Virus record (IMG/VR): IMGVR_UViG_3300031227_005786
Span: 1 to 25,217 of that record
Reading direction: 5' to 3' (one strand)
Origin: a virus
Length of the DNA stretch: 25,217 bases
Position 1 is the first letter of the stretch; the number at the start of each line of letters is the position of its first letter. The notes below the pieces were generated by a model that worked only from the letters and a program-made list of their open reading frames with translations, made no database searches and was not told where the DNA came from. Below, in pieces: positions 5,440-21,013 of this stretch. Made by a program: the position numbers and the translations under genes.

Positions 5440-5633
5440 CAGGTATTATTTATATGTTGCCAAAAACTATGTTTATATTTCCATGAGACAGAACCATCCC
5501 TGTGATATTGAACCGTAACATTATCTTTCTTTAATATGTCTCTAAGTTCATCAGATTTCTCATATTTTTTCTCAGCCCTGAACTTTATTATCATTCTGAC
5601 TGCTCGATTGACAATTTCTTGGTTATTCAGCAT
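5439..5633 (-). CDS. Stand-alone cysteinyl-tRNA synthetase C-terminal-domain-like protein (64 aa)
   Basis: The run EIVNRAVRMIIKFRAEKKYEK followed by SDELRDILKKDNVTVQYHRDGSVSWKYK matches the pattern of the small C-terminal anticodon-recognition domain of bacterial cysteinyl-tRNA synthetase: helix, R-x-x-K-x-[WY]-x-x-[AS]-D-x-x-R-D-x-L, then a short beta hairpin with a D-G-x-x-W ending. The rest of the enzyme is absent. The ATG at 5631-5633 is preceded by CCGGAAG and overlaps the portal stop (5623), so translation is coupled to the portal. An earlier in-frame ATG at 5711 would overlap the portal by 89 bases and is less likely. The role is unknown; RNA or tRNA binding is inference from the fold. 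Confidence 0.7.
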   Translation of the reverse strand: MLNNQEIVNRAVRMIIKFRAEKKYEKSDELRDILKKDNVTVQYHRDGSVSWKYKHSFWQHINNT

Positions 5634-7092
5634 CAAAACTTCCGGCTTCAAATCCTTCAGTAGTTTCTTTGCTCTGTTTGTCTTTTTCCATCTCCAGCTT
5701 TTCCTCTGCAATATCAGTCACATATGGATTATTTTTGAGAGCAGTATCTTCTGACATGATAGGTTCTCCTGCCAATGCTTCAGACAGTGTTGTGATGGTT
5801 TCAGCGATATCCTGTGGAGTCGGGTCTTGGAATTGTGGAGTAGCAACCACAGCCTGAAGACTTTCTTCACTTGCAACTGATGTGAATTGAAGCATCTTTT
5901 TCACCAGATTTAATCTTCTTGTGAATCCTTCTCCAAACACTTCTTGATGATTGAATGATTTCAGTCTTGCATCGAAAAACAGCATTTTGAGTAGAATACC
6001 ACTTATGGATGTCAGTCCTTTCACTGAATTGAAACTGATATCAGGTGTGTGTGTATTTGAGAATATCAAGTCTTTGAGATTATCGAGTTCCAACTTCAGT
6101 GATACCGGCTCATGATCCCATGTCAGATATGATGCATCACCATATTCAAGTTTCTTCTGATCCGGAGAAGGAACACCAGCAAATTGCAACATCTTCCCTG
6201 TCTGGGTTTTATCAGGCGGCTCAATCAATTTCCCCATTATTTTAATCATAGGAGCGGCATAATAGTCATTTTCATCTGCATGATTTGATATCAGGTCTTC
6301 ATATCTCTCAATCAGTGACTGAACATCCTTCCATTCTGCCTGTTCCTGCTCATAATATATAACTGGAATCTTGCCATACTGATTCGGCTTTGTTTCCAAC
6401 AGTTTGAATGCATCTCCTTCTTTGAAATAGAACACAAAATTCTCAGCAGTATAAACATCCACTCTTGAAACTGTTGCAATAGCGTTCTTCTCTGTATCAA
6501 ACTGTTCCATGTCATATGTAACTGTGAAAGCATCCATGTTTCCATATTGGTCAAAGTGTGGATAGATATGATATCCCAGCTTATTAGACAGGAGCATAAC
6601 TCCAATCTGCGAGCCGATATATTCAGGGTCAGTGTCAGGGACAGGACTCTCTTCATCGAAAGTCTCATTCTTAGCATACCACAATTCAGCAGTTCTGGTT
6701 TCAATCATGGTTGTTCTTGTAAGTTTCCTATCAAAATACTGAATCTTATTAGCATCAAATACTCCTTCAATCTGTTTGAATGCTTCTTCAGTGTTTTCTT
6801 CCGAATCAAGAACATACTTGACTGGTTTCCCGACAAGAAATGCAACAGCAAGACTTGTGATAACCTTCTGGAATGTAGCAACTAATCTGGCAACAGGAAC
6901 ATCCTTTACTTTGTCATCCTTTCCCACCTTTTTGTCAGGTCTCAAGAGAATCTTATGATCTCCATCATATTGCTTCTGATTAGTCTCAGCATCCTTGAGA
7001 TATTCATCATCTTTTGTGAGTTCCTTGATGATTGCCGCAACATCAGTCAATGCAAGAATCTGATCGATTATTTTTTCCTGTTTCTCAGCCAT
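5623..7092 (-). CDS. Portal protein, SPP1 gp6 family (489 aa)
   Basis: Length, position after the large terminase and sequence pattern match Phage_prot_Gp6/SPP1 portal proteins. A helical N-terminus contains YLKDAETNQKQYDGDHKIL, then NPV-like VKDVPVARLVATFQKVI and AVAFLVGKPVKYV, a long alpha/beta wing, ISFNSVKGLTSISGILLKMLF for the stem/clip helices near residue 360, and an acidic C-terminus. Twelve copies should form the ring through which DNA enters and leaves the head. The ATG at 7090-7092 has AAAGGAG upstream. It sits 15 bases after the terminase stop. Confidence 0.93.
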   Translation of the reverse strand: MAEKQEKIIDQILALTDVAAIIKELTKDDEYLKDAETNQKQYDGDHKILLRPDKKVGKDDKVKDVPVARLVATFQKVITSLAVAFLVGKPVKYVLDSEENTEEAFKQIEGVFDANKIQYFDRKLTRTTMIETRTAELWYAKNETFDEESPVPDTDPEYIGSQIGVMLLSNKLGYHIYPHFDQYGNMDAFTVTYDMEQFDTEKNAIATVSRVDVYTAENFVFYFKEGDAFKLLETKPNQYGKIPVIYYEQEQAEWKDVQSLIERYEDLISNHADENDYYAAPMIKIMGKLIEPPDKTQTGKMLQFAGVPSPDQKKLEYGDASYLTWDHEPVSLKLELDNLKDLIFSNTHTPDISFNSVKGLTSISGILLKMLFFDARLKSFNHQEVFGEGFTRRLNLVKKMLQFTSVASEESLQAVVATPQFQDPTPQDIAETITTLSEALAGEPIMSEDTALKNNPYVTDIAEEKLEMEKDKQSKETTEGFEAGSFDAE

Positions 7093-7107: not shown

Positions 7108-8418
7108 TTACACGAATATTCCATAATCTGCTGGATTAATATGTTCGTTTTCTATCTCTAATATCTGCTCACTCCAGGCATACCTCAATGCATCGATCCA
7201 ATGGTTAAACTTGTCAATCGGGATATTCAATACATCTCCATCTTTATTTTTTGTCCATTGATATAATTGAAACTCATTTATTACATCCTGAAGTTCATAA
7301 TGAATAATAATCTTGTATTGTTTCAGCCAGTTAATACCATAATTTACTGAACCAGCCCCTTTTATTGATGGATAGATATTAATGCCATAATTAAGTCTTA
7401 AATCTTCTATATCTTTTGAGGAAGCACAATCTCCAATAATCTTTTCCTCACTACTCATTCCTTTAGCAGTCAATGGCAATGTTTCTCTGATGTTCTCTGC
7501 AATGACAGTGTTTACCATACCAAGTCCACCAAATGCATGAGTAATATATATTATATTGTCACGTTTTGCAGACCTTATCCCAGCAGTAGGGTCATTTGAA
7601 AATCCAAAGTCAAGTCCATTCTTATAATTATCGAATTGACCAAGTATATCACTTAAATCCTCTTTAATCCAGTTTGTAAATACAAGTTCACCAAGCACAC
7701 CCCAGTTACCAAGCACATAAACTTCGTATGAATATCTATCTTCTTCATTCTCTTTTAATGCTTCAAGTCTATTTACGTCCTGTTGTGTTAAATAATTATT
7801 ATCTTTATATGTCGTTTTTAATATTAATTTCTTATCATCTTTGTAAAGTTTATCATCATCATCAAAACACCCTTTGAAAAATTCTTTGTATATCCAACTT
7901 GTTTTAAACATGGGATTAAAGCTAAATATTTCTCTTTTTATTTTCCCTTTTCCGTCATCACCTCTCGTTCGTCTTCCAAGCTCGATATAATCTTCACGCT
8001 TGCACTCAGTTGCTTCTTCATACCATAAATCAGTCACATTTCCAACATCAGCAGTGATTGATTTTATTTTCTGGACATCATCAAGCCCCTTAAACATTGC
8101 CTGATAGCCATTTAGTTTGCATGTGATCTTAAAATCTGTTTCATTTATCTTAAAATGTTTTATTAATCCCCATTTTATAATACATTTTTTTACTTCTTTA
8201 AATACCGAGTCTCGAATTGATACTCCAACATTACGTAATACAAGATAGTTTCTTCCCCCTTGTATTAAATCCCATACAAGTCTTTGAGCAAGAAAATATG
8301 ACTTACCTGAACTTGATCCACCAAAAAATATCTGTATTGGTGTTTCATTAAATAAAAATTCATCATATACTGGATTGATTTCTCCTTTTCTATTGAATTC
8401 AAATCTATATGTTGTCAT
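7108..8418 (-). CDS. terL: Terminase large subunit, PBSX/Terminase_3 type (436 aa)
   Basis: ATP-driven DNA-packaging motor and nuclease. The ATPase domain has Walker A GGSSSGKS at about 33-40 and Walker B VTDLWYEEATE near 130-140 with the catalytic Glu after Tyr-Glu. FSFNPMFKTSWIYKEFF near 190 is the coupling motif of the Terminase_3 family. The nuclease domain shows its acidic residues in GLDFGFSNDPTAG near 268, IIGDCASSKD near 330 and the terminal HWIDALRYAW. The start (8416-8418) overlaps the small subunit stop by ATGA. The length is normal for the family and nothing is missing. Confidence 0.96.
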   Translation of the reverse strand: MTTYRFEFNRKGEINPVYDEFLFNETPIQIFFGGSSSGKSYFLAQRLVWDLIQGGRNYLVLRNVGVSIRDSVFKEVKKCIIKWGLIKHFKINETDFKITCKLNGYQAMFKGLDDVQKIKSITADVGNVTDLWYEEATECKREDYIELGRRTRGDDGKGKIKREIFSFNPMFKTSWIYKEFFKGCFDDDDKLYKDDKKLILKTTYKDNNYLTQQDVNRLEALKENEEDRYSYEVYVLGNWGVLGELVFTNWIKEDLSDILGQFDNYKNGLDFGFSNDPTAGIRSAKRDNIIYITHAFGGLGMVNTVIAENIRETLPLTAKGMSSEEKIIGDCASSKDIEDLRLNYGINIYPSIKGAGSVNYGINWLKQYKIIIHYELQDVINEFQLYQWTKNKDGDVLNIPIDKFNHWIDALRYAWSEQILEIENEHINPADYGIFV

Positions 8419-8933
8419 TCTTCTTTTTTCTCATCAGGATAACCTATCTTAATAATAACTTCTTGTGGAGTGTATTCTTCATAAAGTTTTTTCATCTTAC
8501 CAAGTTCAGCTAATGCTTTTGATTTTCCTTCAACTTTTATTTCATCAATAGTGTCATATTCTTCACCATCTTTTTTCCTGATCGTTTTTGTTGAACTGAT
8601 CGCATAGGCAATATCTCTCGGTAATTCCGATATTGGAATTAGGTTTGAGTTTTCATCATACAAATCTTTCATGTTAAAATCTGATATTGTTTTGTTTTTA
8701 TTCATCACATCAAAAACATCTTGCATAAATAGTTCTTCAAATTTAGCTCTGCGTTTTTCTATGTATTTTATTATTTCAGGTTTACTCAGGTTTTCTTGAC
8801 CAATAGAATAAGCAGTTTTTTTTGAATACCCGGCACGTTTTGCGGCATCGGTTGCATTACCCATTGAAGAGGTTAAATAGAGATCACAGAATCGTTTCAT
8901 TTTCGGAGTCATGTTTTTTTTCTTCTTTGCCAT
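8415..8933 (-). CDS. terS: Terminase small subunit (Terminase_2 type, 172 aa)
   Basis: Residues 8-60 (MTPKMKRFCDLYLTSSMGNATDAAKRAGYS then IGQENLSKPEI) show the helix-turn-helix start of Terminase_2 proteins: the FCDLYL helix, the N-A-T-x-A-A-x-x-A-G-Y-S helix and a conserved N-L-x-K-P-x-I. The C-terminal half is charged and probably oligomerises and contacts TerL. TerS recognises the packaging site on concatemeric DNA. The ATG at 8931-8933 has AGAGGAG upstream and a stable leader hairpin 20 bases further up. Directly beyond lies the GTTACA repeat array, a natural candidate for its binding site. Confidence 0.93.
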   Translation of the reverse strand: MAKKKKNMTPKMKRFCDLYLTSSMGNATDAAKRAGYSKKTAYSIGQENLSKPEIIKYIEKRRAKFEELFMQDVFDVMNKNKTISDFNMKDLYDENSNLIPISELPRDIAYAISSTKTIRKKDGEEYDTIDEIKVEGKSKALAELGKMKKLYEEYTPQEVIIKIGYPDEKKEE

Positions 8934-8952
8934 TTGCTCCTCTAATTATTTA

Positions 8953-8983
8953 TGGAGTCCCAGTGTCAGCATCTGAGACTCCA
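8953..8983 (-). promoter_or_regulatory. Hairpin in the terS leader
   Basis: Minus-strand RNA can form UGGAGUCUCAG paired with CUGGGACUCCA, 11 pairs with one U-G wobble round a 9-base loop. It ends 16-17 bases before the AGAGGAG site of terS and has no U run, so it looks like a leader or translational-control structure, or a processing stem, rather than a terminator. The wobble is a mismatch on the other strand, which favours minus-strand RNA. Confidence 0.5.
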
Positions 8984-9117
8984 GAAGAACTGAATGAAGA
9001 AAATATGAAACAAGGAGATTTGCTCCATACATAAAATAATAACATAATATTCTGTAAAATACAAGTATTTTTAGTGTAACAAGTTTAATACTATGTTTAT
9101 TATAAAGTTATAGTCAT

Positions 9118-9146
9118 TCTGTTACAAGATGTTACAGAATGTTACA
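9118..9146 (+). repeat. Left arm of long inverted repeat (three GTTACA units)
   Basis: Starts TCTGTTACA, followed by ATGTTACA and AATGTTACA in a 10-bp step. The reverse complement of the arm at 9375-9403 matches it at all but two adjacent bases (AG here, GA there). The two arms face each other across about 230 bp of TA-rich DNA. Confidence 0.8.
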
Positions 9147-9374
9147 CTTTTTTTCTTCTATAAGTATGTTAATATAATAAAAGTTACAAGAATTATTTTT
9201 AAATGTGTAACAATGTAACAGAAAAAACAACACATATATATACATGAGGAATGATAGAAATAAATATACAGAGTTACTCACATAGGAGTGTATAAATACA
9301 CAGATTCTGTTACATATATATATATTATTCTTAGTAAATATATATATATAATAGAGATAAGTACCTATTTTATT

Positions 9375-9403
9375 TGTAACATTCTGTAACATTCTGTAAC
9401 AGA
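9375..9403 (-). repeat. Right arm of long inverted repeat (three TGTAAC units)
   Basis: Plus strand reads TGTAACATTC twice in tandem and then TGTAACAGA. It is the inverted partner of 9118-9146 with two mismatches. A further tandem pair, TGTAACAAGT then TGTAACATTT, follows at 9437-9456 and runs into the stop of the next gene. Confidence 0.8.
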
Positions 9404-9454
9404 CCTCTGTAAGTTATTGTTTTTATTAAACTGATTTGTAACAAGTTGTAACAT

Positions 9455-9901
9455 TTAGAGCAGTATATCGGTGATTTTGGCTATTTTTGCCTTGTTTTTT
9501 TTATTTTCATTGAGTAGTTTTGTAACAATATTTTTTATATTTTCATCAATATTATTACTTTTTATTACATGAAAAATGCATTTTGGTTCTAAGAATGTTA
9601 CAGAAATGACCCGATCAAGTGGTGTCTTTTGCTTACAAATAAAGTTATCTCTAAACCCTTTTGGTCGTGAATAGTACTCACATTCCTGACAAACCTCGAA
9701 GAAATTCTGCTGTTTTAAAGTATCAAGATATTTAATATCCTGCATAATAAGACAGTGCCCAGAATCCTCAATTACCGGCTCGAAACATTCACAAGACAAT
9801 GTGAGTATCTGATTCCCAATGAAATTATAATCCTTTTTCCTACAAAAATTTATAGCCTCACCATGAACTCTGAATCGACAATTCTTACAGATTCTTTTCA
9901 T
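9455..9901 (-). CDS. Cysteine-rich protein with two repeated zinc-type modules (148 aa)
   Basis: Two modules share one pattern: ICKNCRF ... NFCRKK ... CECFEP at residues 4-41, and VCQECEYYS ... FICKQK ... KCIFHV at about 70-112. Each has C-x2-C, a third cysteine in an [NF]-x-C-[RK]-x-K context and a fourth in C-x-F/C-I-F. This looks like an internal duplication of a small zinc fold. The C-terminus is lysine/asparagine rich. The ATG (9899-9901) overlaps the upstream stop (ATGA) and follows AAGGAGTCAAGAAA. Two copies of the GTTACA repeat lie inside its coding sequence. Nucleic-acid or protein binding is likely but the role is unknown. Confidence 0.7.
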   Translation of the reverse strand: MKRICKNCRFRVHGEAINFCRKKDYNFIGNQILTLSCECFEPVIEDSGHCLIMQDIKYLDTLKQQNFFEVCQECEYYSRPKGFRDNFICKQKTPLDRVISVTFLEPKCIFHVIKSNNIDENIKNIVTKLLNENKKNKAKIAKITDILL

Positions 9902-13381: not shown

Positions 13382-15775
13382 TTAAAATATTTTCTGAGTT
13401 GGGATTACTGTTGCTCTCTGAACCACTCCCATGAATCTGGCTGTCTTAGATTTGGCATCAGGAAATCTCTTGAGAATCCTTCCCCAGTTCTTTTCATGCT
13501 CTGAATTATTCAATATCTTTTGAATTCCTGCATGTGAATCTGAAACAATCATGAATCTTTCATCAATAACATCTTCATATTTTATTCCCATTCTCTCCAT
13601 AGCATTCTTTGCCGGGACTGATATATCATTTTCATAGAGTATTTCAGACACTGTTCTATCAATCCTTTCTCTTTCAACCATGTATGTGAGTGTATGTTCA
13701 AGAATCCTGTTCAGGCATTTCTCTTCATCACTCAGTCCTTCGATTGATGATTGCTCAGCCCAGTCCTGTTCTTCAATCCATTTCTCTGCATCTTCACCTG
13801 AAATTTTCCCATCGGATGTCAATGCATAAGCACCTGAAATCAGAGTTCCATACTGGTCTCCGATTCTCTGATTCCCAAACTTCTCAGCAATTACTCTTCC
13901 AAAAGTCCTTGCATTTGCCAGAATATCCGGGATCATTTTAATTGCTCTTGCCCTGAGACCAGCACAATATAATGGATTAACCACCTTGACTTGCTCTTTC
14001 AGTCCATCAAAGAAATCAACAGTATCTTTGGGATGTGGTTTGATTAAAGACAGCACAGTGATTCTGGATGCATCTGATTTCTGATGAATATTCACTCCCA
14101 CTGATGACAAGCAGAAGCATGACCTGACCTTGAACTCAACAGCACTTCCATGAGAACTGCCCTTGACAATGGGAGCACCTGTCTCTGATGATGCCTGTCT
14201 CATGAGTTCAACTACATTCTGAAGCCTGTCCCTTGACCTTCTCTCTTCTCCTTCAGCTTCATCAAGGACAACAGGGAAAGCATTAATCCCCAGCCATTGC
14301 CTAATCCCTGCTTCAGTTGTATTGCTCTGAGCATTCATTGCTGTCTGCCCCAGTGCCGGAGCAATTATGTTTCCAGATAACCATGTTTTCCCTGTTCCAG
14401 ATTGACCTGTCAGCCAAATGTGAGGTCTCCAATATAATGCTCCACAGATAGGAGCAACAACACACCATCCGGCAAACAGAGTTCCTGAAATCGGTTTCTC
14501 CCATGTTGGCATTCTGCAAACTTCAAGAAATTTTGATGATTCAGTCTTTGAGAGTGGTTCAGTCTGGGATGATTCGATTGGATAACTGGCATTGTATATG
14601 AAATTTGTTTTGAAATCCTGAATCTTTGTTGCCACACCATCGACAATAAGCATGTCTCCATTATGCTGGACAGTTCTGTTCTGATCAGACCATGTTCCGC
14701 ATCCCCTGAGTTTTTTGGAATCATATATTCCCATTCCTTTTGAATATCTGAACATGAAGTTTCTGCCAGCATTCCAATCCGTTCCTCTCTTGGAAGGGAA
14801 TGTTGTTTCCCACCATTGCAAGGGAGCAAGTGCAATCATATTCGCCTGTGAGTGCTGTTCAGCAGTCATCCTAACCAACTGAAGATCTTCATCTGGCATA
14901 TAATAGAATGCACCATCATTGCTACCCAGAATCTTGAATGGAGGATTGTCAGGGTCTTTGTAAACTGTTTTGATTTCTTCCTTTACATCTTCAGTCTTCT
15001 TTGCTTCAGGAGTCCATGTGGGAGAACTCTGAGCAATATTGATAAGTTCTTCTCTTGTTCCACCAGCTTCAATCCAGTCAGAGATATCCTGTCCTTTGCT
15101 CATGCCATCAACATTTGCAATTATTATTGATGAAGCAACTCCATCCAGATATGATGCAATTTTCTGAACATGATCCCTGCCCGGCTCATCATTGTCTGCA
15201 ATCAGAACGATTTTTGCTGAACTGAAATATTGAGAGAAATCCTTTCTCCATTTTCCTGCTCCACCTGAATTGCATGTTGCTGTGAAGCCCATTTCCTCAA
15301 GTTTAATTACATCCTTTTCACCTTCTACGATGAAGATTGCATTTCCAGCTTTGACAGTATCAATGACTTTTGGAAGCCTGAATGGAAGTGGATGAATTCC
15401 CTTTAAGTTATATATCCATTTCTTTGGATTCGCTGGGTCAGGCTGTCTTTGTGAGAAGGATTTTGGCTCGAATCTGACAGCTTGGTATATCACCTTACCT
15501 GTCATGTCAGTGTAATTATACTTTGCTACGATTTTCTTTTTACTTGTGGAAGATTTTGGGGCAAAAAGGTCTTTCAATTCATATCCAAGTGCAGACGCAA
15601 CATCCTTTGATTTACAACCTGCAAAACAGTGGAGAAGGATTGTCCCATTATCTTCTCGGATTGAAAGTGAATTATTTTTATCATCATGAGCCGGACAAAT
15701 TGCAGTGTGTCCATCACCTGACTTCTTAACCTTTTTAAGTTTGGAAAGTAATTCATGAATGTTGGCTGACATCAT
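13382..15775 (-). CDS. Toprim primase-helicase (797 aa)
   Basis: Residues about 17-55 form a primase zinc-binding domain (TAICPAHDDKNNSLSI ... LLHCFAGCKSKDVA, ligands C, H, C, C). A Toprim domain follows near 145-215 with FIVEGEKDVIKL (catalytic Glu) and IVLIADNDEPGRDHV (D-x-D). A linker leads to a P-loop ATPase: GQSGTGKTWLSG near 455 and VVLDEAEGEERRSRDR near 500 as Walker B. The middle part resembles DUF927-type helicase domains of integrative elements and phages. The protein should synthesise primers and unwind DNA at the phage fork. The gene has its own promoter, P3, and the usual bifunctional length. A second ATG directly downstream (MM) leaves a one-codon start ambiguity. Confidence 0.9.
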   Translation of the reverse strand: MMSANIHELLSKLKKVKKSGDGHTAICPAHDDKNNSLSIREDNGTILLHCFAGCKSKDVASALGYELKDLFAPKSSTSKKKIVAKYNYTDMTGKVIYQAVRFEPKSFSQRQPDPANPKKWIYNLKGIHPLPFRLPKVIDTVKAGNAIFIVEGEKDVIKLEEMGFTATCNSGGAGKWRKDFSQYFSSAKIVLIADNDEPGRDHVQKIASYLDGVASSIIIANVDGMSKGQDISDWIEAGGTREELINIAQSSPTWTPEAKKTEDVKEEIKTVYKDPDNPPFKILGSNDGAFYYMPDEDLQLVRMTAEQHSQANMIALAPLQWWETTFPSKRGTDWNAGRNFMFRYSKGMGIYDSKKLRGCGTWSDQNRTVQHNGDMLIVDGVATKIQDFKTNFIYNASYPIESSQTEPLSKTESSKFLEVCRMPTWEKPISGTLFAGWCVVAPICGALYWRPHIWLTGQSGTGKTWLSGNIIAPALGQTAMNAQSNTTEAGIRQWLGINAFPVVLDEAEGEERRSRDRLQNVVELMRQASSETGAPIVKGSSHGSAVEFKVRSCFCLSSVGVNIHQKSDASRITVLSLIKPHPKDTVDFFDGLKEQVKVVNPLYCAGLRARAIKMIPDILANARTFGRVIAEKFGNQRIGDQYGTLISGAYALTSDGKISGEDAEKWIEEQDWAEQSSIEGLSDEEKCLNRILEHTLTYMVERERIDRTVSEILYENDISVPAKNAMERMGIKYEDVIDERFMIVSDSHAGIQKILNNSEHEKNWGRILKRFPDAKSKTARFMGVVQRATVIPTQKIF

Positions 15776-15802: not shown

Positions 15803-15831
15803 ATAATATGAATTATACTATTGATTGTCAA
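15803..15831 (-). promoter_or_regulatory. Promoter P3, sigma70-type, in the end of the C5-methyltransferase gene
   Basis: TTGACA (15826-15831), 17 bases, TATTAT (15803-15808) on the minus strand, 28 bases before the primase start. The -35 box lies inside the last codons of the methyltransferase gene. AATATGAATTATA is present on the plus strand at 15805-15817, overlapping the -10 box and spacer, in inverted orientation relative to P2. Confidence 0.82.
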
Positions 15832-16660
15832 GTTTTTTTATGATTGCTGAAATTACACTTGTTGTTACTGCATTGCCAATTGTTTTATATCTTTGTGAAT
15901 CTGAAATCAATGTTTTTTTATTATTTAATATTCCGTATTTTGTCCAGTTATCGGGAAATGCCTGTAATCGTTCGCATTCGATTGGAGTAAATATTCTTAT
16001 TTTACCATTTATTTTTATTTTTGTGCTATGTCCAGAAACTTTTCCATATTGTGCTGTTATAGCTCTACTGATATGATTTCTCCTGTAAATGCTTCCTTGT
16101 TTTCTATCATTTTGATTTCTTTCTGAGAAAGGGAATATTTTTTGTTCACATCTTTTTCCAAAATATCCAAAAATGAAAATTCTTTCTCTTGATTGAGGAA
16201 CTGAAATGCATCTGCTATCAAGAACTTGCCATTGATACTCATACCCAATGTTGGCAAGAATCCCAAGTATTCTTGAGAAAGTTTTTCCATTGTCATGACT
16301 AAGTAAACCCTTAACATTTTCGAGTAAAAAATATCCGGGTCGCTTGTGCTTGAGAATCCTTGCAATTTCAAAAAATAATGTACCTCTTGAGTCATTAAAC
16401 CCTTTTTTTTTGCCAGCAATACTGAAAGACTGGCATGGAAATCCGCCAACGAGCAAGTCAAAGTCGGGAAGTTCTGAAACATTGATGTTTGTCGCATCTC
16501 CGAAGTTTCTGTCTCCCGGGTATCTGTACTCGTAGATTGCTGAGGCGTATTTGTCAATTTCTGAATATCCAATACATTCCCATTTTTCTGTTGCTTGTTC
16601 GATTCCAACACGAAAACCTCCTATTCCAGCAAACATTTCAAAATATTTTAATTTAAACAT
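15818..16660 (-). CDS. DNA C5-cytosine methyltransferase (280 aa)
   Basis: All core motifs are present: FAGIGGFRVG (motif I, SAM binding) at about 10-19, GGFPCQSFS with the catalytic cysteine (motif IV) near 72, LLENVKGLL (VI), QSRERIFIFG (VIII), and TPIECERLQAFPDNW plus KTIGNAVTTSV (IX-X) at the C-terminus. The target-recognition region between VIII and IX is short, so the enzyme is small for its class. It should methylate cytosine C5 in a specific site of phage or host DNA. The ATG at 16658-16660 overlaps the stop of the nuclease gene; a TTG at 16663 with better spacing to GAGGAG is an alternative. No partner restriction enzyme of a classic type is next to it, only the VRR-NUC protein. Confidence 0.93.
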   Translation of the reverse strand: MFKLKYFEMFAGIGGFRVGIEQATEKWECIGYSEIDKYASAIYEYRYPGDRNFGDATNINVSELPDFDLLVGGFPCQSFSIAGKKKGFNDSRGTLFFEIARILKHKRPGYFLLENVKGLLSHDNGKTFSRILGILANIGYEYQWQVLDSRCISVPQSRERIFIFGYFGKRCEQKIFPFSERNQNDRKQGSIYRRNHISRAITAQYGKVSGHSTKIKINGKIRIFTPIECERLQAFPDNWTKYGILNNKKTLISDSQRYKTIGNAVTTSVISAIIKKLDNQ

Positions 16661-17006
16661 CAAACAAGACTCCTCGTTCGATTATCTTCACAGCTTCTTC
16701 TTCCGATTTTGCAACTCCGGCAATGCCACCAGCAAGTCCAACTTGAAACAAGAAATTCATCTGTGTTTTTGATACCTTACCTTTTTTGGTCTTGATTTCA
16801 ATAGCTGTGAAGACTGCAACATTTTTTCCAATCATGTCAGGAGTGATACGCTTCGTAGACCAGCCGACCAAATCAGCTGAACCTTTGCACAGACCGTATT
16901 TTATCTTACGGGTTTTATCGAATCCAACATTATTCCTGAACATAGTTGCAAGATGTGATTCTGAAATTGCCAGTCTGATTCTATCTTGTATTGTTTTCTC
17001 ACTCAT
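16653..17006 (-). CDS. VRR-NUC domain nuclease (117 aa)
   Basis: MSEKTIQDRIRLAISESHLA begins the protein. The family motifs are seen in order: KYGLCKGSADLVGW (G-x-A-D-[LI]), FTAIEIKTKKGKVSKTQ ([AV]-x-E-x-K with K/Q downstream) and a final helix region. These are the catalytic Asp, Glu, Lys and Gln of the PD-(D/E)xK VRR-NUC fold. In phages such proteins are structure-specific (junction or flap) nucleases used in recombination and packaging. The ATG at 17004-17006 follows AAAGGA by nine bases; a TTG at 17015 is an alternative. The stop overlaps the C5-methyltransferase start. Confidence 0.85.
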   Translation of the reverse strand: MSEKTIQDRIRLAISESHLATMFRNNVGFDKTRKIKYGLCKGSADLVGWSTKRITPDMIGKNVAVFTAIEIKTKKGKVSKTQMNFLFQVGLAGGIAGVAKSEEEAVKIIERGVLFDV

Positions 17007-17027
17007 TATATTCAATCCTTTTATAAC

Positions 17028-17099
17028 GTGCCTGTTTTTTATAAATTGTAACGCTATTTGCGTTAATTATTATACGATTATTATATTATTATCAGGCAC
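17028..17099. other. Intergenic element closed by GTGCCTG/CAGGCAC with inner hairpin
   Basis: GTGCCTG (17028-17034) and CAGGCAC (17093-17099) are a perfect 7-bp inverted repeat enclosing about 58 AT-rich bases. Inside is a second perfect hairpin, TAACGC/GCGTTA (17049-17065, 5-base loop). It lies 7 bases after the methyltransferase stop and just before the ribosome site of the VRR-NUC gene. A TATAAT at 17073-17078 on the minus strand lacks a matching -35. The outer arm core GTGCCT/AGGCAC also closes the element at 5363-5439. Confidence 0.45.
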
Positions 17100-17106
17100 A
17101 TTAATA

Positions 17107-17847
17107 TCAAAATAGTTTTAATTGTTGACGTTCGTAGAATATGCGTTTTTCTGCTATCTCACAATATTCAGGACTGATTTCCATGCCGATATATTGCCTG
17201 CTTGTTTTAATACAAGCAACTGGAGTCGTACCACTTCCTATTGTAAAATCTAAAACCGTCTCATTTTCATTTGTATATGTTTTGATAAGATATTCTATTA
17301 AGGCAACTGGTTTTTGAGTTGGATGCATGCCTTCAAAATTAGCATTTACAAAATTAATTACTGATATTGGATATCGATACCCACTATTTTTAATTATTAC
17401 ATTTTTCTTTTGGTAATGTGTTCCCGGCTGAATAGCTCTTTTTCTGATGTCAATATACGGTGTACCTTTTGTTTTTTGTGAATTAAAAACTGGTTGTCTA
17501 TAATAAAACAAACAAATATTCTCATGTGCCTTTTGAGGTCTTTTCCCTGATGCAAATGGTTCTTTCCCAAATGTTTTATTCCAAATCCATTCATACTTAA
17601 ACATCCCCATGTTACTCGCTATTAATTTTGTTGTAAATGGCTGACTTGCTGTCATAACGATTGCACCATTTGGCTTAATGATCCGCTTCAACTGTTCCCA
17701 CATAGGCTCAAGCGGAATGATAGAATCCCATTTACAAGCTGTTGTACCATAAGGAACATCTGCAAGAATCATATCAATGCTTTCTGACTCAATATTAGGC
17801 ATTAATTCTAAACAATCACCGCAATATATTTTATTCAATTCAAGCAT
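17107..17847 (-). CDS. DNA amino-methyltransferase A, beta-class (N6-A or N4-C), 246 aa
   Basis: Catalytic motif IV appears as DVPYG at 30-34 (a conservative variant of DPPY) and SAM motif I as DFTIGSGTTP near 208, in the order typical of beta-class enzymes. HPTQKPVALIEYLIKTY precedes motif I as usual. N-terminal 78 and C-terminal about 80 residues are nearly identical to the methyltransferase at 20288-21013, whereas residues about 80-165 (KTFGKEPFASGKR ... VINFVNANFEG) are different and probably set the target site. The DNA is also very similar at both ends. The ATG (17845-17847) overlaps the upstream TGA. Whether A or C is methylated cannot be told. Confidence 0.92.
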   Translation of the reverse strand: MLELNKIYCGDCLELMPNIESESIDMILADVPYGTTACKWDSIIPLEPMWEQLKRIIKPNGAIVMTASQPFTTKLIASNMGMFKYEWIWNKTFGKEPFASGKRPQKAHENICLFYYRQPVFNSQKTKGTPYIDIRKRAIQPGTHYQKKNVIIKNSGYRYPISVINFVNANFEGMHPTQKPVALIEYLIKTYTNENETVLDFTIGSGTTPVACIKTSRQYIGMEISPEYCEIAEKRIFYERQQLKLF

Positions 17848-18163
17848 ATTTCCCCTTCAGTTCATCAGGAATTCCTTCTTTAATTAATTTTGCATAAATC
17901 TGCTCAATGATTCCTTTACGAGTATGATAATCCCTCTCTGGAGCTATCTTCAATAAATCCTGAATACTCCAATCATCAAGATGCAACTCAGGATATGGTG
18001 GGACATAGCATGTTGAGCAGAATATTTCATCTCCTTCTCCCTTATGCCAGTCATCTTCTTCAACTGCTGATTCAGGATCAATCTCAACATAGAAATATGC
18101 TGTTTTCTCTCCGCAACCATCGCACTCAATTGAAAAAATATCATCATTAATTTGCTCAATCAC
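17840..18163 (-). CDS. Hypothetical protein with two CxxC motifs (107 aa)
   Basis: MIEQINDDIFSIECDGCGEK places a C-x2-C at about 14-17 and EIFCSTCYVPPYP another near 48-51, a zinc-ribbon arrangement with an acidic insert (DPESAVEEDDWHKGEGD) between. The C-terminus is helical. The start is GTG (18161-18163) after AAAGGA, with no ATG in a better position. It sits between two DNA methyltransferases, 15 bases from the one upstream and overlapping the one downstream by TGA/ATG, so a role in DNA modification is possible but unproven. Confidence 0.7.
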   Translation of the reverse strand: MIEQINDDIFSIECDGCGEKTAYFYVEIDPESAVEEDDWHKGEGDEIFCSTCYVPPYPELHLDDWSIQDLLKIAPERDYHTRKGIIEQIYAKLIKEGIPDELKGKYA

Positions 18164-18178
18164 TTTAAAATTCCTTTC

Positions 18179-19639
18179 CTAAAATAGTTTTAACTGTTTC
18201 ATTTCGGATTCAATTCGTTTATTCCCTATTACACAAGATTCCGGTGATAGTTCCATGCCAATAAACTGGAATCCTTCAATTATAGAAGCTACACCAGTGC
18301 TTCCACTGCCTGCGAAATTATCAAGCACTATTCCTTTTGGTGGTGTAATAAGACGGCAGAGATACCGCATGAGTTTAATAGGTTTGACAGTTGGATGATT
18401 GTTAGCACGAGGTATTTTTGTATCAGATATTTTATCACTGAAACCGTTATCTCTTTCTATATATTTCGCTTCCATCCCCTCAAGTCCCTTATTCCTTTCG
18501 GCTTTCGATGCCTTTGCGCAGTAGAAAAACCGAGCGGCAGAACCGGAATCGCCCTTATCAATAAACCGTTTATCTTGTCCACCTTGCCAGAAACCAGTGC
18601 TACTTGCTCCCCCACCGTGTGTTTTTGTATTCGGAAATCCTTCCAGTACTTCATCTGAGCCATTGTGAATGAAATTTGCAGGAAAACGACCTTGAGTATT
18701 AGGAGCAATTACTGTTGCTTTTCCAAGACTGAATTCTTTTTTATTAGCACTATCATATTCTTTGCCAATAGAATTTATTCCACTACGAAGTGTTCTTTCT
18801 TCTAAATCCTTTTTTTGATATTCCACTCTGCATCCATCCACATTTATTCCGCCAGTTCCCCAGTTCAGTACATTAGCGGCAACTGTTTTCTCAGATAGTG
18901 GTTTCCTGCAGAGCGTCCATAATTCCATTGCTGGTTTTAGAGCAGTGCCCCAGCCCTCATATGGTGAGTTTCCTTTGGTTATTTTTATTTCTTTTCCATT
19001 TTCTCTTTTGTTATAAATTTCACTTCCATAAATTGAACTTGCTCCGAAATTGGTTTTTCCCAATAACTCTCTTCCTGCCTCTTCAAAGGCAATATCGCAA
19101 AAATCATCAAGATTTAGCCCTTTCTTTAAAAGTTCATAGTCTTCTTTCATTGGAAATCTACCATCTTCAAACCAACTATTTCCCCCAAATGTTTTAGCAT
19201 TCATTCCGCACTTTTTGAATGCTTGTTGTTTTGTTAAACCCAATTTTACTCTTGCTTCTTTAATTCTATTGGAAAGGGTTTTTAATTTATCCCAATCTTT
19301 CCTTTTATCAATCGCCTTACCCACATTCAAACTTTTCGGGAATCCCGATCCATATACCCATGCAATTAAATCCCGTATCTCAAATCCTGCATCCTCAATA
19401 TTAACCGCCATTCTATGCTGTGTTCGAGTACCACAAGCAATTAATGCATATCCACCCGGCTTCAATACTCGTAATGCTTCTTCCCAAACATCAACACCCG
19501 GAATATTATAATCCCATTTCTTACCCATGAAACTCCATCCATACGGCGGATCGGTAACGATAGAGTCCACACTATTACTTTTCATCTTTTTCATCAATTT
19601 AACACAATCACCACAGTATATTTTATTCAATTCTTTCAC
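18179..19639 (-). CDS. DNA amino-methyltransferase with inserted helix-turn-helix domain (486 aa)
   Basis: Motif IV DPPYG lies at 30-34 and motif I as LDNFAGSGSTGVAS near 433, preceded by NNHPTVKPIKLMRYL, giving a beta-class N6-A or N4-C enzyme twice the size of its neighbours. Residues about 120-176 (SNRIKEARVKLGLTKQQAF then MNAKTFG and WFEDGRFPMKEDYELLKKGL) look like an XRE-type helix-turn-helix inserted in the catalytic domain, a feature I recall from other phage methylases. The GTG start at 19639 overlaps the upstream TGA and aligns with the ELNKIYCGDC start of both other enzymes; an in-frame ATG at 19669 lies inside the previous gene. The C-terminal EMKQLKLF resembles the tails of both paralogues. 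Confidence 0.92.
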   Translation of the reverse strand: MKELNKIYCGDCVKLMKKMKSNSVDSIVTDPPYGWSFMGKKWDYNIPGVDVWEEALRVLKPGGYALIACGTRTQHRMAVNIEDAGFEIRDLIAWVYGSGFPKSLNVGKAIDKRKDWDKLKTLSNRIKEARVKLGLTKQQAFKKCGMNAKTFGGNSWFEDGRFPMKEDYELLKKGLNLDDFCDIAFEEAGRELLGKTNFGASSIYGSEIYNKRENGKEIKITKGNSPYEGWGTALKPAMELWTLCRKPLSEKTVAANVLNWGTGGINVDGCRVEYQKKDLEERTLRSGINSIGKEYDSANKKEFSLGKATVIAPNTQGRFPANFIHNGSDEVLEGFPNTKTHGGGASSTGFWQGGQDKRFIDKGDSGSAARFFYCAKASKAERNKGLEGMEAKYIERDNGFSDKISDTKIPRANNHPTVKPIKLMRYLCRLITPPKGIVLDNFAGSGSTGVASIIEGFQFIGMELSPESCVIGNKRIESEMKQLKLF

Positions 19640-19959
19640 AGTCCAAAGCCCCACAATTTGCGAAGCCATTTAATCACAAGTTTATCGTCATATCTCCATA
19701 TCTCTAATGCTCTGAAGAAATTATATCCAAACTCCCACCAAATCCACAGAGCCAGCCAGAACACAGGATAGAGCCAGAATGTTGCATCGATCAAATACAG
19801 TATAATCGAAAATGGTATGCCATAACTGATAGCCTTCAGTATATGCCATAACTCCATCAATGTACTTCCACCTTTGGCATGATCAATTGCATCACATGCT
19901 GAATTAATCAGGTATGACAACAGCATCAGAATCATTATCATTGCGTTTTCTAAATTCAT
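19636..19959 (-). CDS. Hypothetical membrane protein (107 aa)
   Basis: Predicted membrane segments are at about 6-20 (AMIMILMLLSYLINSA), 41-57 (AISYGIPFSIILYLIDA) and 58-75 (TFWLYPVFWLALWIWW). The C-terminal tail is basic (RYDDKLVIKWLRKLWGFGL). The ATG at 19957-19959 follows GGAGAAGAACTG and starts 56 bases inside the upstream gene; a frame open to 20055 has no better site. The stop overlaps the methyltransferase GTG. Multi-span small proteins in such a place may be lysis, membrane-anchoring or defence-evasion factors, but none is recognised. Confidence 0.62.
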   Translation of the reverse strand: MNLENAMIMILMLLSYLINSACDAIDHAKGGSTLMELWHILKAISYGIPFSIILYLIDATFWLYPVFWLALWIWWEFGYNFFRALEIWRYDDKLVIKWLRKLWGFGL

Positions 19960-20182
19960 CAGTTCTTCTCCATGTTTGATATTTACTCGAGCCATCAGGA
20001 ACTGGTTTGAATGGTTTATCAACCTTGATAGCTTTCGAGACTTTGTTATAATCAATTATCCTTCTTGTCTGTCCTATTCCCCTGCCGGATATGATTGTGA
20101 TGTAAACTGCTCTGTTTCTAATATAATTTAATATTAAAAAGCCAATCAATCCAACCAATAATAAAATCCTTACAATCAGCAT
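19904..20182 (-). CDS. Small protein with N-terminal membrane anchor (92 aa)
   Basis: MLIVRILLLVGLIGFLILNY is a clear N-terminal membrane segment or uncleaved signal. The following 70 residues are hydrophilic with RGIGQTRRIIDYNKVSKAIK and an acidic tail (NDNDSDAVVIPD). AAAGGAG lies ten bases before the ATG (20180-20182) and inside the gene upstream. Its 3' end overlaps the next membrane gene. The soluble part may be beta-rich (VYITIISGRGIGQTR resembles a small barrel strand) but no family is assigned. Confidence 0.62.
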   Translation of the reverse strand: MLIVRILLLVGLIGFLILNYIRNRAVYITIISGRGIGQTRRIIDYNKVSKAIKVDKPFKPVPDGSSKYQTWRRTDEFRKRNDNDSDAVVIPD

Positions 20183-20288
20183 AAGTCAATATCTCCTTTC
20201 TTCTGAATCGGAACAGCCACATAACTGCAAGGAATGTTCCAATGATTAATGTTAATATTGAGAAACATAATGATGCGAGTTCAAGCAT
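20118..20288 (-). CDS. Small membrane protein (56 aa), overlapping gene
   Basis: From an ATG at 20286-20288 that overlaps the TAA of methyltransferase B (TAATG), the frame reads MLELASLCFSILTLIIGTFL then AVMWLFRFRRKE, one membrane segment followed by a basic stop-transfer, and ends at TAG 20118. It overlaps the next gene by 65 bases in a different frame, as spanin or holin pairs can. No separate ribosome site is needed if translation is coupled. Real but unproven. Confidence 0.45.
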   Translation of the reverse strand: MLELASLCFSILTLIIGTFLAVMWLFRFRRKEILTYADCKDFIIGWIDWLFNIKLY

Positions 20289-21013
20289 TATAGTTCCAGT
20301 TTTAATTGTTGACGTTCATAGAATATGCGTTTCTCTGCTATCTTGCAATACTGTTCATCAAGTTCAATACCAATATATTGCCTATTTGTTTTAATGCAAG
20401 CAACGGGAGTTGTTCCACTTCCCATTGTAAAATCTAAAACAATATCATTTTCATTTGTATATGTTTTGATTAAATATTCCATAAGTGCAACTGGTTTTTG
20501 AGTTGGATGTAATAATTTATCTCTACTAAATTTTTGAATACTTTTTGGATAACCACTTATTGTTTGTGTATATTGCCCACTATGATTTAAAACATCAGAT
20601 TTTGCTTGTTTTATATTTTTGGGGATTATATTATATATTCCTAAAGGATTATATATAGTTTTATTTTTTGAAAAAACTAAAATATTTTCATGTATTTTTA
20701 ATGGATGTATTTTTGCCAATAATGGATTTGATGATTTTATTTTATCCCATATCCATTCACACCTAAACCATTTAATATTACTCATAACTAAAATACTTGT
20801 AAATGGTTGACTTGCTGTCATAACGATTGCACCATTTGGTTTGATAATTCGTTTCAATTCTTTCCACATCGGTTCTAACGGGATAATGACATCCCATTTA
20901 CAAGCTGTTGTTCCATAAGGAACGTCTGCAAGAATCATATCAATGCTACCGGATTCTATGTTTGGCATTAATTCAAGACAGTCACCGCAATGTATCTTAT
21001 TAGTTTCAAGCAT
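20288..21013 (-). CDS. DNA amino-methyltransferase B, beta-class, paralogue of A (241 aa)
   Basis: MLETNKIHCGDCLELMPNI and ADVPYGTTACKWD (motif IV variant DVPY at 30-33) open the enzyme. HPTQKPVALMEYLIKTYTNE and LDFTMGSGTTPVACIKT (motif I) close it. Both ends are nearly identical to methyltransferase A at protein and DNA level, while residues about 80-160 (IKSSNPLLAKIHPLK ... GYPKSIQKFSRD) are unrelated. AAAGGA precedes the ATG (21011-21013), which overlaps the helicase stop. It should methylate N6-A or N4-C at a site different from that of A. Confidence 0.92.
   Translation of the reverse strand: MLETNKIHCGDCLELMPNIESGSIDMILADVPYGTTACKWDVIIPLEPMWKELKRIIKPNGAIVMTASQPFTSILVMSNIKWFRCEWIWDKIKSSNPLLAKIHPLKIHENILVFSKNKTIYNPLGIYNIIPKNIKQAKSDVLNHSGQYTQTISGYPKSIQKFSRDKLLHPTQKPVALMEYLIKTYTNENDIVLDFTMGSGTTPVACIKTNRQYIGIELDEQYCKIAEKRIFYERQQLKLEL

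Follow-up and report, generated by a model that had tools for sequence, protein, structure and literature searches.

A hexamer array upstream of a phage small terminase gene as a probable iteron-type replication origin linked to a primase-helicase family

Background

Which function is served by a dense array of one hexamer that lies upstream of a phage small terminase gene (terS)? The question is raised by a 25,217-bp virus fragment, referred to here as the window, in which the main genes are carried by the minus strand and in which terS, terL and the portal gene lie on one side of the array, and a Cys-rich ORF and a primase-helicase gene on the other. Packaging (pac/cos) sites are frequently found in or near terS, and the PacA protein of phage P1 binds its hexamers at pac. 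A previous sequence-only reading of the locus proposed a packaging site, a replication origin, or both. Our analyses support the origin part of this proposal and not the packaging part: the array very probably constitutes the iteron-type replication origin of the phage, with an internal AT-rich core, and would be read by the phage's own primase-helicase.

Results and discussion

Structure and composition of the array

The word GTTACA, or its complement TGTAAC, occurs 19 times in the window (the shuffle mean for 25 kb being 8.88), and 15 of these copies fall within the array (Table 1). In 1000 dinucleotide shuffles of positions 8934-9640, the mean number of copies was 0.85 and the maximum 6, while the top count for any hexamer was 9. 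These local shuffles confirmed the excess over chance claimed in the sequence-only reading, and the window array displays the clustering of one short word, far above chance, by which iteron-type origins are recognised. The last two copies (9521 and 9597) fall within the Cys-rich ORF, the intergenic part of the locus extending from 8934 to 9454. A T precedes GTTACA in 14 of the 15 copies and, judged from the sequence, the array unit is best read as the 7-bp dyad TGTWACA rather than as a hexamer; because its centre base flips between the window and the related phage L013 (see below), the strand assigned to a copy would reflect the identity of the centre base only.

Exact 10-bp steps separate the copies at 9121/9131/9141, 9375/9385/9395 and 9437/9447, just as originally described, and the left and right triplets form an inverted repeat of 29 bp at 93% identity. 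The broader description of the array as helically phased holds for these groups but is not established for the array as a whole: a common phase (R = 0.62, p = 0.003 with the copies taken as independent) was not significant with the runs kept as units (p = 0.19), and the idea of one helical phase for the whole array was consequently dropped. An Rfam search yielded no match.

Iteron-type origins also carry an AT-rich stretch within or beside the iterons, and a 60-bp stretch of 12% GC is found near the middle of the window array. The lowest-GC 60 bp ranked within the lowest 5% of same-sized stretches of the locus in 23 out of 26 arrays (0.043 in the window). GC skew showed no switch at the array and was uninformative, as the coding strand dominates the skew.

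Table 1. Coordinates of the array, its components and the neighbouring genes (window positions unless another lineage is named)
Feature	Position	Strand	Basis or remark
Iteron array, proposed replication origin	9075..9602	.	15 copies of TGTWACA (GTTACA/TGTAAC)
Left triplet, TGTTACA x3, 10-bp step	9120..9146	+	motif positions
Right triplet, TGTAACA x3, 10-bp step	9375..9401	-	motif positions
Copy pair, 10-bp step	9437..9453	-	motif positions
AT core TAAATATATATATATAATA, candidate unwinding element	9335..9353	+	common to L013, L011 and L312
Small Cys-rich ORF, two array copies in 3' end	9455..9901	-	L013 homologue in the same place
terS (Terminase_2, E 2.5e-28)	8415..8933	-	neighbour, not thought to be the reader
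terL (Terminase_3)	7108..8418	-	neighbour
Hairpin	8954-8982; L013 4479-4508; L011 2045-2078; L312 3859-3895	- (window)	folding
Proposed initiator: 797-aa fusion of CHC2 zinc finger, TOPRIM primase and Cch/D5-like helicase	13382..15775	-	domain search and fold match

Conservation of the array in lineages with divergent terminases

Contig 3300005935_000073 carries the array at 100% identity but represents the same phage as the window and hence provides no independent evidence. In L013 (contig 3300035698_012109), whose primase and TerS are 73% and 47% identical, respectively, to those of the window, TGTWACA is preserved in 10 of the 14 aligned copies, five of which show a flipped centre base, and identity to the window reaches 0.83 within the copies versus 0.64 outside them. 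This comparison lends good support to a conserved array that would bind a protein. In the same place upstream of terS, L011 and its related contig L010 carry TGTWWACA in 11-bp steps, whereas L312 carries TGCCTACA/TGTAGGCA in steps of 11-12 bp. Like the steps of 10-11 bp in L013, these correspond to about one helical turn. The check for a loss of the 10-bp phase in relatives, named as a refutation in the sequence-only reading, therefore has a mixed outcome, the spacing being kept as a turn but not as exactly 10 bp.

In all four lineages the AT core TAAATATATATATATAATA sits between a single copy and a triplet. DUF3987 phages use the L011-type word, GTTTACA, as well, and the L011 contig is without a primase; a swap of primase class was considered as an explanation of the word change in L011, against which stands the AT core that it has in common with the window, L013 and L312. 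Relative to the genes, the core is antisense in the window, as it is in L013, whereas L011 and L312 have it in the sense orientation, and this inversion with respect to terS argues against a terS promoter. It also weakens the proposal that the array constitutes an operator or promoter array for the late operon (from terS onward), bound by a phage regulator, which would fit the location upstream of the late genes and the AT-rich, promoter-like DNA held by the array. As the arrays of relatives moreover lie directly after or before the primase gene, we regard an operator as highly improbable.

The relationship between the array and the terminase genes is best appreciated in L312. Its primase is 46% identical to that of the window, and an array and the AT core are retained between primase and terS. 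In turn, its TerS belongs to a different PHROG family (phrog_309 versus phrog_51) and displays no BLASTP similarity to the window TerS, while its TerL matches that of the window at 27% over 95 residues only. According to these alignments, both terminase genes are replaced in L312, whereas the primase, the array type and the AT core remain. If the array were a pac or cosB-type site, TerS would bind its hexamers and TerL would cut nearby, and the distance of 130-180 bp from terS in the window, L013, L011 and L312 agrees with the customary location of such sites. However, among the 47 TerL relatives with enough upstream sequence, 46 lack a comparable array upstream of TerL/terS and a single one carries it, which is not the pattern of an array conserved together with TerS/TerL. 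The word is unchanged between the window and L013 despite the divergence of their TerS proteins, and the array type is unchanged in L312 next to a TerS from another family. Furthermore, the array abuts the primase gene in the phages phi1422 and Acjo_20, and DUF3987-type phages have their arrays beside the primase, mostly without a terminase within 3.5 kb. The survey of TerL relatives and the terminase replacement in L312 led us to reject a packaging site as the main explanation; packaging is not supported as the main function of the array, a pac or cosB-type site at this place being very unlikely, and repeats adjoining terS should be viewed with the caution that they need not be packaging sites.

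Between the array and the start of terS, a stable hairpin is found in the four lineages (Table 1), with fold z-scores from -2.3 to -3.8. Its sequence is largely unrelated among three of the four and had no match in Rfam, and it may be a structured leader or a palindrome related to packaging. The hairpin of varying sequence and the terS adjacency retained in the four lineages would both be accommodated by a dual site, at which replication would start from the array and TerS would start packaging on the same or neighbouring DNA, the hairpin included. If true, iterons placed against terS would couple the start of replication to the marking of concatemers for TerS. Nevertheless, no sign of TerS reading the array and no general link to terS were seen, and in many phages that encode this primase family the array is located at the primase gene, all of which makes a dual site unlikely.

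Arrays follow the primase-helicase gene across phages

When IMG/VR was scanned for triplets of the window-type and L011-type words, about 65 loci with dense arrays were retrieved, and genes for primase-helicases from other classes recurred beside them. Prim-Pol/DUF3987 proteins with a C-terminal HTH were found in 12 of these word-selected loci, with the array 0-349 bp from the gene, and the other flanking classes were D5_N/DUF5906/Pox_D5 and DUF5906/VapE-like. GTTACA or GTTTACA arrays adjoin the genes of both the DUF3987 and the D5/DUF5906 primase classes. In L042 (5243-5470), a run of TGTAACGGATG repeats spans the 3' end of a D5-type primase gene and continues in the intergenic DNA, this array being partly coding. 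Arrays in coding repeats, namely those of gp5-like tail genes (L066, L071, L084, L089, L096) and pentapeptide-like sequences (L203, L191), were set aside.

Because these first loci had been selected by word, the next scan was selected by protein, with a word-free hexamer-array score that compared the interval between -150 and +1200 bp around the primase stop with distant intervals. The strongest hexamer array lay just 3' of the primase gene, surpassing all distant intervals of the locus, in 35 of 58 primase-family loci (33 with a score of at least 14.5; a few contigs being near-duplicates), while about 40% of the loci presented no clear array by this score. The array words vary among these phages, including TAGACA, CGGGAC, GGTAAC, GTTACA (in L365), GCCTAC, CGTAAG, TGCAAA and CGTTAA. 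In loci L248, L249, L271, L283, L279, L289, L294 and L277, with mainly the TOPRIM half of the primase in common, phage-specific hexamer arrays begin no more than about 60 bp from the stop of the primase gene.

Cultured phages with the same primase show comparable arrangements: GTTACC occurs 12 times directly after the gene in Bdellovibrio phi1422 and GTTACA 12 times directly before it in Acinetobacter Acjo_20, and arrays are also present in Serratia MQ-4, Synechococcus S-H1 and Pararheinheimera KLER1-1, whereas none was detected by this score in two Bordetella phages (PBb002/PY223), Aeromonas ST4 or Pseudomonas Dolphis. A prophage of Novosphingobium ovatum carries seven copies of CGTAAG directly 3' of its primase gene; in L389, where bacterial genomes hold the closest relative of the primase (51%), an array immediately downstream is lacking. 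Linkage to the initiator gene, a further attribute of iteron-type origins, is therefore observed family-wide, although in the window itself small genes occupy the roughly 3.8 kb between the array and the primase-helicase gene, and terS is nearer. The origin part of the sequence-only reading is strongly supported because arrays are linked across the family to the primase-helicase gene and contain an AT-rich core.

Clustered iterons at 10-11 bp are likewise a property of parC in ParMRC systems, and their resemblance to the array raises the alternative of a phage-plasmid partition centromere bound by a ParR/TubR-like protein. As arrays track the primase gene, and as PHROG searches of the larger ORFs of the window (part of the genome only) detected no partition gene, we consider a centromere exceedingly unlikely.

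A general mirror symmetry of such origins was also examined and dropped, given that neither the orientation-split test nor the positional mirror test over all arrays (combined p 0.85; window p 0.29) was significant. It is clear only in phi1422 (L386, JQ177062.1; 12/12 sites, p 0.008), where the sites at 5600-5940 surround an AT-rich centre in a perfect positional mirror about 5777, constituting a good experimental model origin.

The primase-helicase as putative initiator

Neither a Pfam match nor a convincing PDB sequence match was obtained for the helicase half of the window protein; the sequence families DUF927, D5_N and DUF5906 were not detected in it, and DUF5906 appears in only 2 of 51 relatives. 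A structural model built from 51 sequences (pLDDT 85.8), which replaced an earlier and poor 4-sequence model, matched SCCmec Cch best (5dgk, E 4e-9), followed by NrS-1, SaPI5 PriRep1 (7pds, E 3.8e-7) and poxvirus E5/D5 (E about 1e-6). Since TM-scores ranged from 0.2 to 0.5, the match is valid at the class level only, and the helicase half is predicted to belong to the SaPI Rep/Cch/D5 fold class of self-loading helicases.

On this basis, a mechanism for initiation at the array can be proposed. The primase-helicase would bind the copies of TGTWACA and assemble on them as rings, the clustered sites following each other at about one helical turn, the AT core would then be melted by the same protein, and the latter would load onto the single strands and prime new synthesis. 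The position beside terS would reflect the border between the replication and late modules. Word similarity showed a weak correlation with primase similarity (0.32 with the core); there was no covariation between word and C-terminal domain after correcting for the core, and the reading domain was not pinpointed in this way.

Comparison with known origins

Similar arrangements have been described in other replicons. A possible parallel is the alpha protein of phage P4, a fused primase-helicase like the one proposed here, which recognises short words in either orientation, the type I iterons of ori and crr; P4 has a second array located away from the first. The origin of phage lambda, read by the O protein, resembles the window array in being a phage origin built of iterons, but involves another initiator class and has its iterons inside the initiator gene. 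Among the TerL relatives of the window, L175, L183 and L166 carry GATAAC iterons; in L175 these are located some 8 kb away from TerL, within a gene that by eye resembles an initiator of the lambda O type.

In plasmid pRN1, the origin lies directly downstream of the gene of the primase-helicase ORF904 and is functional when moved elsewhere (PMC4234260). The downstream location is shared with the primase family studied here, whereas pRN1 relies on a stem-loop and an archaeo-eukaryotic primase, not on an iteron array. The SaPI Rep and Cch2 proteins recognise, via their C-terminal domain, iterons adjoining their genes, that of Cch2 binding AAGTG direct repeats just downstream of the Cch2 gene (PMC7581432). 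The SaPI rep-ori system is like the window in its short clustered iterons and, according to our model, in an initiator helicase of the self-loading Cch/D5 fold class, although no sequence homology was detected between the window helicase half and SaPI Rep. It differs in that its iterons are next to the gene, whereas the window combines a CHC2-TOPRIM primase part and the word TGTWACA with an array placed away from the gene, beside terS. SCCmec Cch and Cch2, with their putative origin, likewise differ in the kind of element, the word and the copy number, and binding in the window is a proposal.

For a family of phages, some cultured and others not, in which the TOPRIM primase-helicases have no annotation beyond 'primase' or 'hypothetical protein', our results provide an origin that can be put to the test. 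They also suggest a search rule, i.e. the phage's own repeated word of 6-8 bp together with an AT-rich core beside the primase-helicase gene, by which candidate origins were obtained at more than half of the examined loci. Relatives of one initiator family use different words, which makes this set suitable for the study of origin choice by such helicases.

Apart from the array, the window carries four clustered DNA methyltransferase genes at 15818-21013 (one of the C5-cytosine type and three of the N6/N4 type), a dense set for 25 kb.
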